Source: Aliivibrio sifiae (GTDB lineage: Bacteria > Pseudomonadota > Gammaproteobacteria > Enterobacterales > Vibrionaceae). Taken from it: a DNA stretch of 64,000 bases. A program made the position numbers and the translations under genes. This document shows, one piece after another, positions 51,609-57,250 of the stretch. The notes below the pieces were generated by a model. It saw only the letters and a list, made by a program, of their open reading frames with translations, had not been told where the DNA came from and ran no database searches. The stretch's first letter is position 1. Every line of letters begins with the position of its first letter. The stretch is from NCBI RefSeq assembly GCF_002954705.1, contig NZ_MSCO01000001.1, positions 2,154,865 to 2,218,864 of the forward strand, written 5' to 3'.

Positions 51609-52535
51609 ATGGCTAAAGATCTCTTTGCAACATTAGACTTAAACTTACTAAGAACCTTTTTAATTCTTTCTCAAGAGCTCAATATGAGAAAAGCTTCTGA
51701 GCGTCTTTTTGTCTCTCAACCGGCCATAAGTCAAGCGCTACAAAAATTACGTAATCATTTTGATGATGAGCTTTTTATAAAAGTTCACCATGGATTAAAA
51801 GCAACCCCATTTTCTGAAGAATTAGCAGAAAACATTCACCCTTACCTTGATGGTTTATCTTCAATATTAAATAAATCTGAAAACTTTCAGCCAAGCGAAT
51901 TGCAACAAACACTAAAAATAGCGTTAGCACCTCAAGTACTAACTTGTTTATCTGGAGCTTTGTTTCATGAAATAAGAGAACAAGCACCAAATGTTGATCT
52001 CCAATTATTTAACTGGTCAATCTCAACCTTTGATGAACTAATTAAAGGAAAATTAGATATTGCGATTAATTATGATTATGACAAGGTATCTAAAGAGTTA
52101 CTCGCTAGTAATTTAATGACCGTGACAGGTTGTGTCATTATTCGAAATGATCACCCCATAAAAAAGCACGTTGCCACTCCTTATGACTTTGAGGGATATG
52201 AACTTGCCTCTTTAATAATCCCCGGTTGGAATAGCAATAAAAGTTTAGCTAGTGAAGTGCTACAACACTTAGATATTGAACATAAAGTTGGCTTTCGTTC
52301 AGAGTTACCAATGGCACTAATTGATGTTATTCAACATACAGATATGTATTTCCCATCAACTTCGTTGTTCCCAACTCATCAATATTCAGGCTTAAGACGT
52401 ATTGATCTATCTCTTGGAGATATTCCCTTAAATTATCCTATTTATAGCTATTATCACCAAAGACACAAAAAGAACCCTCTGCACACTTGGCTAAATCAGT
52501 TAATTACTGATTTATTATTAGAAGCCCACCACTAA
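51609..52535 (+). CDS. LysR-family regulator, paralogue 1
   Basis: A 308-residue LTTR with the N-terminal HTH (LNMRKASERLFVSQPAISQA) and a periplasmic-binding-like effector domain from about residue 90. AAGGAAG precedes the ATG. Its first 75 residues are nearly the same as those of the LysR at 53777-54700, while the effector halves differ widely. The shared operator reading with different ligands is inference. It diverges from the barrel gene and precedes the YadA-like gene on the same strand; either is a candidate target. Confidence 0.9.
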   Translation: MAKDLFATLDLNLLRTFLILSQELNMRKASERLFVSQPAISQALQKLRNHFDDELFIKVHHGLKATPFSEELAENIHPYLDGLSSILNKSENFQPSELQQTLKIALAPQVLTCLSGALFHEIREQAPNVDLQLFNWSISTFDELIKGKLDIAINYDYDKVSKELLASNLMTVTGCVIIRNDHPIKKHVATPYDFEGYELASLIIPGWNSNKSLASEVLQHLDIEHKVGFRSELPMALIDVIQHTDMYFPSTSLFPTHQYSGLRRIDLSLGDIPLNYPIYSYYHQRHKKNPLHTWLNQLITDLLLEAHH

Positions 52536-52723: not shown

Positions 52724-53578
52724 ATGAAAAAAACTATTCTAGCGCTATCGTTAACGGCCATCTTTTCTTCTTCTGTTATGGCAGCAACTATTGAGAATCC
52801 AACAGAACTACCAAGCATTGATAATTCAGTGCCATCAGTTGCAGATCGACCAAGCCCAGATTTTGGAAATACGCCAAACTGGGGATTAGGCCCAACTCAA
52901 CCACCGATGGATAATTCTCCTGAGTACGGAAAACCAATGAATCCTACTCAACCACCAATGGATAACAATACACCGGAACGTCCAACACCAGATCATTCAC
53001 CTGATTGGGGAATTAATCCAGACAAACCTGTTGACCGTCCACAACCAGATGACGCTTCTCCTGATTATGGTAAAGAAATACCTACACAACCACCAGTTGA
53101 TAATAGCCCAAATCGCCCAAAACCAGACGATGCTTCTCCTGATTATGGTAAAGAAATGCCTACACAACCACCTGTAGATGACAATTCACCAGAACGTCCT
53201 GGTCCTGATTTCGGTGATACGCCAGACTGGGGGATTCCACATGTAAGTGATGGTGAACGCATCACTTCATTAGAGAATGATTTTAAAGCAATGGCTGAAG
53301 AAAATAATCGTCGCTTTAATGAACAAGATGAAAAAATCGATGGTGTTAGAGCTGGTTTACACGCCGTTGCCAATGCTCGTCCATTTGTAACAAATGGTGA
53401 GTTTGCAATCGGTGTTGGTGTTGGTTTTTCTGGCTCTAAGGAAGCATTAGCACTGGGTGGGGCTTATGGTATTAATGAACAATTAAGTGTTTCTGGTACT
53501 TTCCATTATGAATCATCAGGCAGCTACTCATCATCAGATGTTGCTGGCGGCGTTGGTCTTCAATACAGCTTTAAATAA
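52724..53578 (+). CDS. Short trimeric-autotransporter-like protein with proline-rich passenger
   Basis: A 284-residue protein. Signal peptide 1-20 (AIFSSSVMA). Residues 21-175 are low-complexity, rich in Pro, Asp, Asn, Thr, with repeats such as DASPDYGKE-(I/M)-PTQPPVD (26-residue period, 78 bp in the DNA at 53048 and 53126) and PDWG. Then a coiled coil (176-217, GERITSLENDFKAMAEENNR) and a YadA-type membrane anchor (218-284, NGEFAIGVGVGFSGSKEALA to GGVGLQYSFK). The anchor ends in Phe-Lys instead of an aromatic residue. No globular head is present. Probably a trimeric surface stalk; binding target unknown. Confidence 0.8.
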   Translation: MKKTILALSLTAIFSSSVMAATIENPTELPSIDNSVPSVADRPSPDFGNTPNWGLGPTQPPMDNSPEYGKPMNPTQPPMDNNTPERPTPDHSPDWGINPDKPVDRPQPDDASPDYGKEIPTQPPVDNSPNRPKPDDASPDYGKEMPTQPPVDDNSPERPGPDFGDTPDWGIPHVSDGERITSLENDFKAMAEENNRRFNEQDEKIDGVRAGLHAVANARPFVTNGEFAIGVGVGFSGSKEALALGGAYGINEQLSVSGTFHYESSGSYSSSDVAGGVGLQYSFK

Positions 53579-53776: not shown

Positions 53777-54700
53777 ATGGCTAAAGACTTGTTTTCTAAT
53801 TTAGACCTTAATCTTTTAAGGACTTTTATTATTCTGCATCAAGAACGAAATATGCGTAAGGCCTCTGAACGCTTATTTGTCTCTCAACCAGCAATCAGTA
53901 AAGCCCTACAACGTCTACGTGATCACTTTGGTGATGAATTATTTGTAAAAACACATCATGGCCTTCGTGCTACTGAATATGCGAATCAATTAGCAGAAAG
54001 CATCTCCCCAATACTTGATGAATTATCGTCAACATTAAATGAAAGTAATGAATTTAATCCACAAGAGCTCGATGGCGTAATTAAGATCGCTTTATCTCCT
54101 TTTCTTTTAAGCGCCATTGCCAATAGCTTATTTCAAGCAATTAGAACTGAAGCACCTAACGTTCAAGTGCAATTATTAAATTGGTCTAAATCCACAATGA
54201 CCGATATCATTAATAACGAAGTTCAATTAGGAGTTAATTATGAAATTAGCCACGCTCCGAAAGAATTAATCCAAAAAGCTATAGCTCAAGACCGTTTTAC
54301 TGGTTATATACGAAAAGACCATCCTTATAAAGGTAACAATATTGAAGTGAAAGATGGTGTAAATTTCGAACTAGCAACAGTAATTGCTGTTGATTGGAAC
54401 TCTCACCAATCTTTAGCAGAAAAGATATTAAAGATAAGAGGATACGAAGCAAATATTGGCTTTAGATCTGAATTACCTTCAGCTGTTATTGATGTAGTTA
54501 ATAACTCTGACATGCTATTCCCTGCATCTAAGTTTTTAGAAATAGAACATAACCACCAATTACGAAGCCTTAAAATTCTTTTTGATAATCAAGACATTAA
54601 CCCTAAAGTCTGCGCTTATTACCACCATAAAAATCGTAATAACCATACGATGCTATGGTTAAAAAACATTCTTCAATCCTTACTTATTGATAACCAATAG
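53777..54700 (+). CDS. LysR-family regulator, paralogue 2
   Basis: A 307-residue LTTR; MAKDLFSNLDLNLLRTFIIL and MRKASERLFVSQPAISKALQ are almost identical to paralogue 1, whereas the effector domain (from about residue 90) is divergent although it keeps landmarks such as NIGFRSELPSAVIDVV. AAAGGAG lies eight bases before ATG. It stands between the YadA-like gene and a small barrel gene. Duplication followed by effector-domain divergence is inferred. Confidence 0.9.
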   Translation: MAKDLFSNLDLNLLRTFIILHQERNMRKASERLFVSQPAISKALQRLRDHFGDELFVKTHHGLRATEYANQLAESISPILDELSSTLNESNEFNPQELDGVIKIALSPFLLSAIANSLFQAIRTEAPNVQVQLLNWSKSTMTDIINNEVQLGVNYEISHAPKELIQKAIAQDRFTGYIRKDHPYKGNNIEVKDGVNFELATVIAVDWNSHQSLAEKILKIRGYEANIGFRSELPSAVIDVVNNSDMLFPASKFLEIEHNHQLRSLKILFDNQDINPKVCAYYHHKNRNNHTMLWLKNILQSLLIDNQ

Positions 54701-54741
54701 TTATTAGGTCAATTAACCTCAATCATTAATAACTCAAGATT

Positions 54742-54778
54742 AAAGCCTCTATTCTTTTAAGGGATTGGAGGCTTTTTT
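54742..54778 (+). terminator. Terminator after LysR paralogue 2
   Basis: AAGCCTC and GAGGCTT pair across an 18-base loop and are followed by TTTTTTG. Confidence 0.75.
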
Positions 54779-54841
54779 GTACATTTCATATACTTCTCTC
54801 ATCGGCTAGGAACGTGACTCATAACAATAGGTAGGGTAATT

Positions 54842-54973
54842 ATGATTCTTCTTATCATGCTAATAATCCAATTTCTTTTTCTAACCCTTTGTATCAAAGC
54901 AATGATAAATGACTCTGAGTGCATTAATTACTCATTAATAAGTTTTGGTTATGAGCAAGATAAATACATGTGA
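54842..54973 (+). CDS. Possible small membrane protein, 43 residues
   Basis: ATG 54842 is preceded by TAGGTAGGG with a five-base gap, a good ribosome site, and the frame ends with TGA 54971-54973. The product has one hydrophobic helix at the N-terminus (MILLIMLIIQFLFLTLCIKA) and a short polar tail ending YEQDKYM. It lies between a terminator and a barrel gene. Not recognised; coding status rests on the ribosome site and on composition. Confidence 0.4.
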   Translation: MILLIMLIIQFLFLTLCIKAMINDSECINYSLISFGYEQDKYM

Positions 54974-55076
54974 TTAGTGACTTACTGTATTTCTTATTAC
55001 TATCTCCTCATCAAAACAATTAAAGATAAAACAAAGCACGGATGCTTTTTTAAACTATTATGAGAGAGTATCCATT

Positions 55077-55571
55077 ATGAAAAAATCACACCTAGTTCTT
55101 GCTATCGCAACTCTATTTAGCGCAAACACTTTTGCTAATGACTTCCACCTTTCTCCTGAAATTAAAATCGGCCCTTACGGCGGCTTTGGTATTCAAGCAG
55201 GTGTCACTGACGCACTTGGCTTTGATGCGGCATTTATCAGTTATGGACGTACGGTTTATAGCAGCTCTATGTATGATGAAACTATCGACTCATATCGCTT
55301 TGGTGTTCAGCACATGTTTGGTGCTGCAAAAATTCATGGTATGCAACTTGAGGCTGGTATTGCAAATTATGATGGAAAGAAAACAAAAAGTGGTAACACA
55401 ACAAAAGAAAGTGCACTCGGTTCTAGTATTGGTGCCTCTTATGTTTTCCAAGCTACTGATAATTTAGGGCTCAGAGCAGGAGTTGATTTGAATTACTTCC
55501 CAATGAGCGACACTTATATTCCTTATGATTTATCAACTAACTTCAATATTGGTATGACATTCACTTTTTAA
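55077..55571 (+). CDS. Small outer-membrane beta-barrel protein
   Basis: A 164-residue product with signal peptide (MKKSHLVLAIATLFSANTFA) and alternating strands (IGPYGGFGIQAGVTDALGF, SYRFGVQHMFGAAKIHGMQL, LGSSIGASYVFQATDNLGLR), ending in Phe (IGMTFTF). It is the size of an eight-strand barrel. Function unknown. A 122-codon overlapping ORF in another frame is a shadow. GAGAG lies 13 bases before the ATG. Confidence 0.78.
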   Translation: MKKSHLVLAIATLFSANTFANDFHLSPEIKIGPYGGFGIQAGVTDALGFDAAFISYGRTVYSSSMYDETIDSYRFGVQHMFGAAKIHGMQLEAGIANYDGKKTKSGNTTKESALGSSIGASYVFQATDNLGLRAGVDLNYFPMSDTYIPYDLSTNFNIGMTFTF

Positions 55572-55572
55572 G

Positions 55573-55745
55573 TAATACCATTCTAGATAAGTAGTTGTTC
55601 AGATAATTGCGTAGGAAAAATCGATTATAGCAAGGCATAAATTACAGTAACTAGTGGATCTAATTACAAAATTTATAACACTGATATAATCGATTTTAAC
55701 AAGCAAGAATGATCAAATACTTATGTAGATTGGCATAATACCAAT
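55573..55745. repeat. Imperfect palindromic repeat, about 170 bp
   Basis: The left arm (about 55573-55655) and the reverse complement of the right arm (about 55662-55745) align along their whole length. Shared blocks include ATAAGTA-TTG-TCA, AAAATCGATTATA and ATAAATT-GTAA-TAG, with centre TGGATC. The unit would fold into one long hairpin and carries no ORF. It resembles MITE- or BIME-like dispersed repeats of Vibrio intergenic regions; copies elsewhere cannot be seen here. Confidence 0.7.
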
Positions 55746-55768
55746 TCAAATATGTAAATGACCAGATA

Positions 55769-55806
55769 CAAAAATGGCGCTGTTTATTTAAACAGCGCCA
55801 TTTTTA
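55769..55806. terminator. Bidirectional terminator between the barrel and VC2662-type genes
   Basis: AAAAATGGCGCTGTTT and AAACAGCGCCATTTTT form a perfect 16-pair stem with a four-base loop, serving both convergent genes. Confidence 0.9.
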
Positions 55807-55828
55807 TTTAATTAATTTTTAAATCAAA

Positions 55829-56389
55829 TTACATCGCAAAGTTCACGATAGGGAAACAAGGTAGAAAACCATTTTCCGCACAGTTGATCAGACCAACTTG
55901 AACACCTTTAATTTCAGATGTCATATTAAAGAAACCCACTTGAACGTGTGAATCGTTTGAAAGGTTTGCAACGCCAACATCAACCATTGTGTAGCCTTCA
56001 GAATAGTTAACTGCAGATAGGTTCGCACCTTTAACATTATTAGTAATGTTAACAAAACCTAAGTTAGCACCTAGATCTTCACCTTTGTGCCAGTTAAATA
56101 GGCCGAAAGATGCACCTGTCATATTGCCATTAACTTTGTTAGCACCGATAAATAGAGGGAAGTTAACACCGGTTAGGTTATCACTTTCTGACATACCAAG
56201 TGCAAAATCGACACCTGTTATATCACCCGTTTTACCATGAAGAGCTGCTAAACGTACGCCAGTTACTTCACTTGCCGCTGGTGCGTTAAAACCATTCAGA
56301 GATGAAAACATCACAGGAGTGCTGTCTGCCATAGCGAACGATGAAACCATAGATAACGCCGCGCAAGTACCAACTAAAATTTTCTTCAT
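55829..56389 (-). CDS. VC2662-family exported protein
   Basis: A 186-residue protein with signal peptide (MVSSFAMA) and a regular pattern of short strands: ITGVDFALG, LTGVNFPLF, MTGASFGLFN, LGANLGFVN, VKGANLSAVN, VDVGVANLSN, VQVGFFNM, IKGVQVGLIN. Each has Gly-x-(N/D/S/Q)-(F/L/V), giving a solenoid-like repeat of about 15-20 residues. It ends NGFLPCFPIVNFAM with two Cys (INCAENGFLPC). I recognise it as the Vibrionaceae VC2662 family, of unknown function. Confidence 0.8.
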   Translation of the reverse strand: MKKILVGTCAALSMVSSFAMADSTPVMFSSLNGFNAPAASEVTGVRLAALHGKTGDITGVDFALGMSESDNLTGVNFPLFIGANKVNGNMTGASFGLFNWHKGEDLGANLGFVNITNNVKGANLSAVNYSEGYTMVDVGVANLSNDSHVQVGFFNMTSEIKGVQVGLINCAENGFLPCFPIVNFAM

Positions 56390-56551
56390 AATATATTCCT
56401 TTATTACTATAATTTATGATTATTAAATGAATCTATTTTTGTATTATCAATCGCATAGTGAATGCAATAGCTCATAATATACTCATATTCATCAATAAAT
56501 ACAGCATAGTTCAAAAAGTTACTCTATGAGTATTATTTTTAAGTCAAATTG

Positions 56552-57250
56552 TTACTTGATCACATCATCAATGTTTTGATCACCAATATGACGTACGTCT
56601 TTACCTTTTACAAAGTAGATAATGTATTCACAAATATTCTGACAACGATCACCCACTCGCTCAATTGCACGAGCAGCCCACATCACTTTCATTACACTTG
56701 GAATTGAACTTGGGTCTTCCATCATATACGTCATAAGCTGGCGTACTACCGCTTCATATTCTGCATCGATTTTATCATCAAACTTATATGCCTCGGTTGC
56801 AGCTTTAACATCCATTCGGGCGTAAGCATCTAACACGGTATGCATCATTTTAACTGACTGGCGACCTAGTGACTCAAGAGAAACGAGTAAGGAGTGTTGT
56901 TTGTTGGTAAAGTTTTCTAATGAAACCTTAGCGATCTGAGATGCAACATCACCAATACGTTCTAGATCAGTAATTGTTTTAATGATTGCCATGACCAAAC
57001 GTAAATCACTTGCGGTGGGTTGTCGCTTAGCAATAATGCGCGTGCATGCTTCATCAATTGCAACCTCCATCGCGTTAACTTTATGATCTTCATGCATAAC
57101 ACGTTTTGCTAATTCAGCATCATGATTATGCAATGCTTCTAATGCATAGGTAAGTTGCTGTTCCACCATTCCTCCCATGGTTAATACATGAGTTCTAATG
57201 GCTTCAAGCTCGGTGTTAAATTGGCCTGAAATATGTCGACCAAGTTGCAT
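56552..57250 (-). CDS. phoU: Phosphate signalling regulator PhoU
   Basis: PhoU links the Pst transporter to PhoR and damps Pho activation when phosphate is ample. The 232-residue protein is two three-helix bundles; the metal-binding motif appears as [14 protein letters not shown] and as [16 protein letters not shown]. It is last in the pst block, 40 bp after pstB. Confidence 0.97.

Follow-up and report, generated by a model that had tools for sequence, protein, structure and literature searches.

The locus

The window, which is the whole stretch of 64,000 nucleotides of Aliivibrio sifiae DNA analysed here, holds an imperfect palindrome in the gap between two convergent genes. An earlier note, made from the sequence alone, had described a 170-bp palindrome at 55573-55745; the palindrome is real, but comparison of copies and their flanks sets its limits at 55576-55735 on the plus strand (left end TACCATTCTAGATAAG; right end, as reverse complement, TGCCAATCTACATAAG), a 160-bp element with one TAA triplet lying outside it on each side as a copy of the target duplication (55573-55575 and 55736-55738). 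The element starts 4 bp past the stop codon of the plus-strand ORF at 55077-55571, which has no match in Pfam or NCBIfam, and is faced by a minus-strand gene at 55829-56389 encoding a VC2662-family protein (NF047437). A terminator-like hairpin lies outside the element on the plus strand (55770-55805), in keeping with the reported location in a convergent gap beside a terminator. Between the two, the plus-strand segment 55739-55765 is older target sequence that is present in sister species without the element; with 18/26 identities to the left end of IS-A, an IS630-family element described below, it is probably what remains, in decayed form, of one end of an older, related element into which the palindrome inserted. 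Elsewhere in the window, a proline-rich repeat protein (52724-53578) lies between two similar genes (51609-52535 and 53777-54700), which we take to be LysR-type regulators.

No ORF of at least 60 aa lies within the 160 bp, as had been claimed. The claim of an identical core in both arms also held: an inverted-repeat search found a 16-nt repeat, 94% complementary, with its left arm at 55617-55632 (+) and its right arm at 55682-55697 (-), within which AAAATCGATTATA is exact at 55617-55629 (+) and 55685-55697 (-). Folding of either strand gives the single long hairpin that had been predicted, at -46.6 kcal/mol (z -5.36) for the plus strand and -49.8 kcal/mol (z -7.57) for the minus strand, and in neither case did any of 200 shuffles fold equally well. 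Searching 54500-57000 against Rfam gave five sub-threshold matches and none above the gathering score; none lay inside the element, and one overlapped its last 13 bases.

Copies and spread

The A. sifiae genome (4.46 Mb in four contigs) contains five full-length copies at E < 1e-50, including the one in the window, on three contigs, together with shorter or diverged copies. Matches to the family came from every one of the 14 genus genomes and from 7 of 47 others. The dispersed, non-autonomous repeat supposed from one copy is indeed multi-copy, contrary to the single-copy outcome that the earlier note had set as its refutation. A pattern for the element's ends, allowing up to two mismatches, occurs 37 times in the A. 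sifiae genome and 110 times in the genome richest in these ends (G011), while the reversed control pattern was found 0 times in each of the 14 genus genomes. Exact 34-base matches in a named sequence collection, from which the records nearest the window's own may be left out, fell in Aliivibrio records in 26 of 26 stretches. Among plasmids, one Photobacterium record matched, at 68.6%, and the E. coli genomes and phages searched gave no match to the element.

Three colinear subfamilies, each of about 160 bp, were compared. A sister subfamily matched 40 of 197 genomes sampled across the order, and these matches belong to families f1, f2, f6, f7, f10, f12 and f17; by a locus measurement that favours lengths near 160, 11 of 12 of its loci held a 159- or 160-bp element, 6 had identical TNA triplets and one yielded no element. 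Over the 54 distinct full-length sites defined below, unit length ranges from 155 to 187 bp and is exactly 160 in 39. Variant arrangements were also seen: a full copy joined directly, through a single TAA, to the end of another copy (L032, G011:C24:38061-38264), short copies of ~96 bp that lack the inner part (for example, G002:C12:40087-40182), and copies enlarged to 177 bp by 17 additional bases close to the hairpin tip (L003 and L005).

Target duplication and empty sites

The full-length set, defined by an alignment score of at least 140 to the copy at locus L052, comprised 62 copies at 54 distinct sites. Flanking triplets were identical at 49 of these (TTA at 25, TAA at 24) and differed at the other five; some loci were retrieved by a pattern containing TWA, which partly preselects the triplet but not its identity on the two sides. 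When flanks were re-paired in 10,000 trials, identical triplets averaged 24.1, with a maximum of 38. Looser lists (408 end pairs, and 126 copies of which 57 have identical triplets) were set aside.

Empty sites, which the earlier note had suggested seeking in relatives, were found for two copies. Among 12 sister-species loci compared at the window site, three (G010, G008 and G011) are of precisely the length predicted for an unoccupied site, with one triplet; in G013, G001 and G007 the element is absent alongside further differences, in G005, G002 and G006 the gap contains a sister element, and G012, G009 and G004 were left out of judgement. At a second A. sifiae copy (C2:856900), G013 aligns ungapped across the insertion point, G007, G001 and G010 lack the element and have gaps close by, and G011 has sister-element sequence. 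These two empty sites fit a 3-bp duplication.

Judged on these sequence comparisons, the palindrome is a mobile element, a MITE: it is short, has no transposase gene, and has terminal inverted repeats, a target duplication and many dispersed copies, and at each end it shares 19 to 20 of 26 bases with an autonomous element, IS-2. Of the "MITE/BIME-like" form first proposed, the MITE half therefore stands and the BIME half falls. A BIME built of REP units and moved by a RAYT enzyme would likewise be palindromic, extragenic and multi-copy, but what is found is a single 160-bp unit with target duplications rather than a mosaic of 20-40-bp REP units, and the insertion sequences that have the same ends are of DDE type; we regard this reading as barely credible.

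Candidate partner elements

An IS630-type motif beside one MITE end in the A. sifiae genome led to two related transposase-bearing elements with ends similar to those of the MITE, as the earlier note had proposed looking for. IS-A is 1,091 bp in the copy at G003 locus L162 and belongs to the IS630 family by NF033545 and PF13358; IS-2 is 1,111 bp in G010. The ends of both start with TACCAAT. Of 150 Vibrionaceae genomes searched, 41 match the first half of IS-2, five of them with 6 to 19 matches, partial ones counted.

In the window copy, the left 26 bp (55576-55601, +) are 19/26 identical to the left end of IS-2, and the right 26 bp (55710-55735, -) are 19/26 identical to its right end and 18/26 to its left end. 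The L052 copy fits IS-2 best at its left end (20/26 to the IS-2 left end, next best 16) and, by a thin margin, at its right end (20/26 to the IS-2 right end versus 19 to the left). In the third subfamily, the left end fits IS-A best (23/26) and the right end fits the IS-2 right end best (21/26), and comparison of the second subfamily gave no decisive fit to either element. When the window was scanned blind with the two IS-2 ends, for which 9 and 14 places score at least 17, the top places were the element's own two ends at 19/26 each, although one other place equals the score of the left one.

In 16 distinct IS copies both ends could be placed clearly; all 16 have TNA on either side and 10 have the same triplet there, a less regular pattern than that of the MITE. 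In a set of 30 IS loci considered for this count, 11 gave no end pair, 6 with two-mismatch pairs were dropped, and 1 of the remaining 13 is the L162 copy. IS-2 is broken in A. sifiae and carries an in-frame stop in the G010 copy, and no match to the IS-2 transposase was found in 9 of the 14 genus genomes, including G011, richest in MITE ends. In many hosts the MITE may thus be stranded, or be moved by another relative. IS630-family elements of ~1.11 kb, whose two unlike ends resemble those of the MITE, are the best candidate source of the enzyme that probably moves it.

In several copies, the IS630-family transposase spans two frames that overlap close to an A tract (L162:1520-2565; L173:1498-2561), and a programmed frameshift is possible from this arrangement.

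Two other leads were followed. An IS inside a sister MITE (L060:542-1780; G000:C2:1106441-1107679) was at first favoured as the autonomous partner, the outer ends there being TACCAAT with TAA on both sides; it was rejected on finding that it has its own inverted ends and sits in a ~10-bp direct repeat, GTTATTTACT, within the MITE. From its ends and transposase we take it to be IS5-like, of the IS903 kind. Around lone MITE ends, no transposase was seen in sets of 15 and 20 stretches, judged by eye from first residues, with open frames listed for 9 of the 15 and frames of at least 150 aa for the other 20.

Conservation of the hairpin

Across 15 diverse copies, 96.6% of the cells of the consensus hairpin are paired. 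Cells changed on both sides number 71, versus 26.0 in shuffles (0 of 500 as high); pairs with two-sided change number 15 versus 10.9 (5 of 500), and further pair types 37 versus 32.9 (11 of 500). Slid controls never exceeded 5 pairs and 11 cells. One alignment supplied both the structure and these counts, and few subfamilies are represented among the copies, so that independent events are fewer than cells.

Pairwise comparisons point the same way. Five between distant copies gave 7 or 8 compensated changes versus 0.8 to 1.6 expected, loop positions included, and two further distant comparisons gave 4 and 5 versus 0.6 and 0.9; two close pairs of copies gave 2 and 1. Where distant copies were compared, in seven comparisons, most of the compensated changes are located over 26 bp from the element ends. 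Because distant subfamilies show compensatory changes deep in the palindrome, the hairpin is, on these alignments, maintained in evolution, and the joint change of the arms hints that the hairpin itself matters. It may be kept as DNA, for transposition or through inter-arm exchange, or as RNA.

Several mismatches are near-invariant among the 15 copies (alignment A3, columns 40/126 G.A, 41/125 A.A, 60/105 G.A and 61/104 C.A), and pairs adjacent to them covary.

Genomic context and the role of the hairpin

Flanking genes were assigned by mechanically calling ORFs of at least 100 aa, with 7 of the 54 sites left out where the available sequence has no gene on one side. On this basis 29 of 47 MITE sites lie in convergent gaps, 15 in tandem gaps and 3 in divergent gaps, whereas 133 background gaps from the same DNA comprise 20 convergent, 90 tandem and 23 divergent (Fisher p 3.6e-9 for the convergent bias, sites of related species being partly non-independent). 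This placement is compatible with loss of harmful insertions and, equally, with a 3'-end function.

The hairpin might act as RNA, protecting, processing or ending the transcripts of either gene at mRNA 3' ends; copies would then persist for that reason, with mobility serving only their spread. The convergent bias (29/47 versus 20/133), the compensatory changes well within the element and the position of the window copy between a stop codon and a terminator would all suit such a role. Against it, strand-neutral pairing shows no excess of G-U (44 G-U versus 55 A-C; the 34 G-U versus 4 A-C counted on the predicted structure are biased by construction), and no orientation preference was found at tandem sites (6 of 15). 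We consider an RNA role rather unlikely.

The same strand-neutral covariation counts in favour of a purely selfish element whose palindrome is kept for transposition, or by arm-arm correction in replication or repair, and whose convergent placement reflects loss elsewhere; the overlap of an ORF at only 2 of the 54 sites also favours this account. DDE transposases are expected to require element ends only, though, and most compensated changes lie farther inside than 26 bp. We put the odds on pure selfishness at about even.

Relation to known repeats

RUP is a repeat of the 107-bp class. Found in Streptococcus pneumoniae and thought to be moved by IS630-Spn1, it is the nearest parallel as described in the extract of PMC2229807: like the MITE, it is short, non-coding and intergenic, with IS630-family-like ends, but it targets TA, whereas the MITE has TNA triplets, a length of 160 bp and a palindrome along its full length. 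Unlike the candidate partner elements, which belong to the IS630 family (NF033545), the MITE is non-coding. TA is the target for which the superfamily is known (ISY100; PMC6400869, extract), and the MITE and IS flanks here are TNA triplets. Vic-1 of Vibrio cholerae is 184 bp long (PMC2267715, extract).

We also weighed the reading that this is an ERIC element of the Vibrionaceae. ERIC (RU-1, 127 bp) is, like the MITE, an intergenic imperfect palindrome with outer bases TATACC (PMC2759123, extract), and ERICs are reported from Vibrionaceae (PMC10969869, extract). Yet ERIC duplicates TA (PMC2759123, extract) and the MITE a 3-bp triplet, and they differ also in sequence and in length (127 versus 160 bp). 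Similarity of the window copy to E. coli ERIC is at shuffle level (117 of 500 as good; for the sister subfamily a marginal 36 of 500), and an E. coli ERIC query found 0 matches in the A. sifiae genome at E 0.001 while finding ERICs in 7 of 51 genomes. An ERIC identity is thus very improbable.

Homology with YPAL is not supported, shuffles being as good in 273, 383 and 304 of 500 trials for the three subfamilies, which leaves no sequence similarity. YPAL shares with the MITE a proximity to terminators, and an RNA role at mRNA 3' ends has been proposed for it. YPAL (RU-2, ~168 bp) also resembles the MITE in length, palindromic form, closeness to stop codons and empty sites (PMC2229807 and PMC2759123, extracts); unlike the MITE, it has no TA at its ends, is not rich in A+T and makes duplications of 3-26 bp (PMC2229807, extract).

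By the sequence tests made, then, the element is not ERIC, YPAL or BIME. No description of this MITE family was found in the open-licence papers searched, mainly by title and abstract, and we regard it as a new MITE family with an architecture and mechanism of known kind.

Interpretation and significance

The best explanation of these observations, to which we assign a probability of roughly 85%, is a MITE that inserts with a 3-bp target duplication, would be moved in trans by an IS630-family transposase and survives mostly in convergent gaps. At the window site, the element inserted at a TAA one base past the stop codon, duplicating the triplet. Selection would remove insertions in genes and promoters, and because of that loss the survivors would lie mostly past stop codons in convergent gaps, where their hairpins would be included in the 3' ends of mRNAs. 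More tentatively, and with somewhat less than even confidence, we suggest an order-wide 160-bp element for which an IS630 lineage provides the movement, with duplication of TNA rather than TA, its hairpin perhaps selected throughout as a ready-made, strand-neutral hairpin for convergent gaps.

What moves small bacterial repeats is presented in the extract of PMC2229807 as an open question without experimental support. Here, both MITE ends match both ends of transposase-bearing elements, which makes the pairing directly testable, and the coevolution of the arms allows a test of whether the hairpin persists on a DNA or an RNA basis. The family is also relevant to the annotation of Aliivibrio and related genomes.
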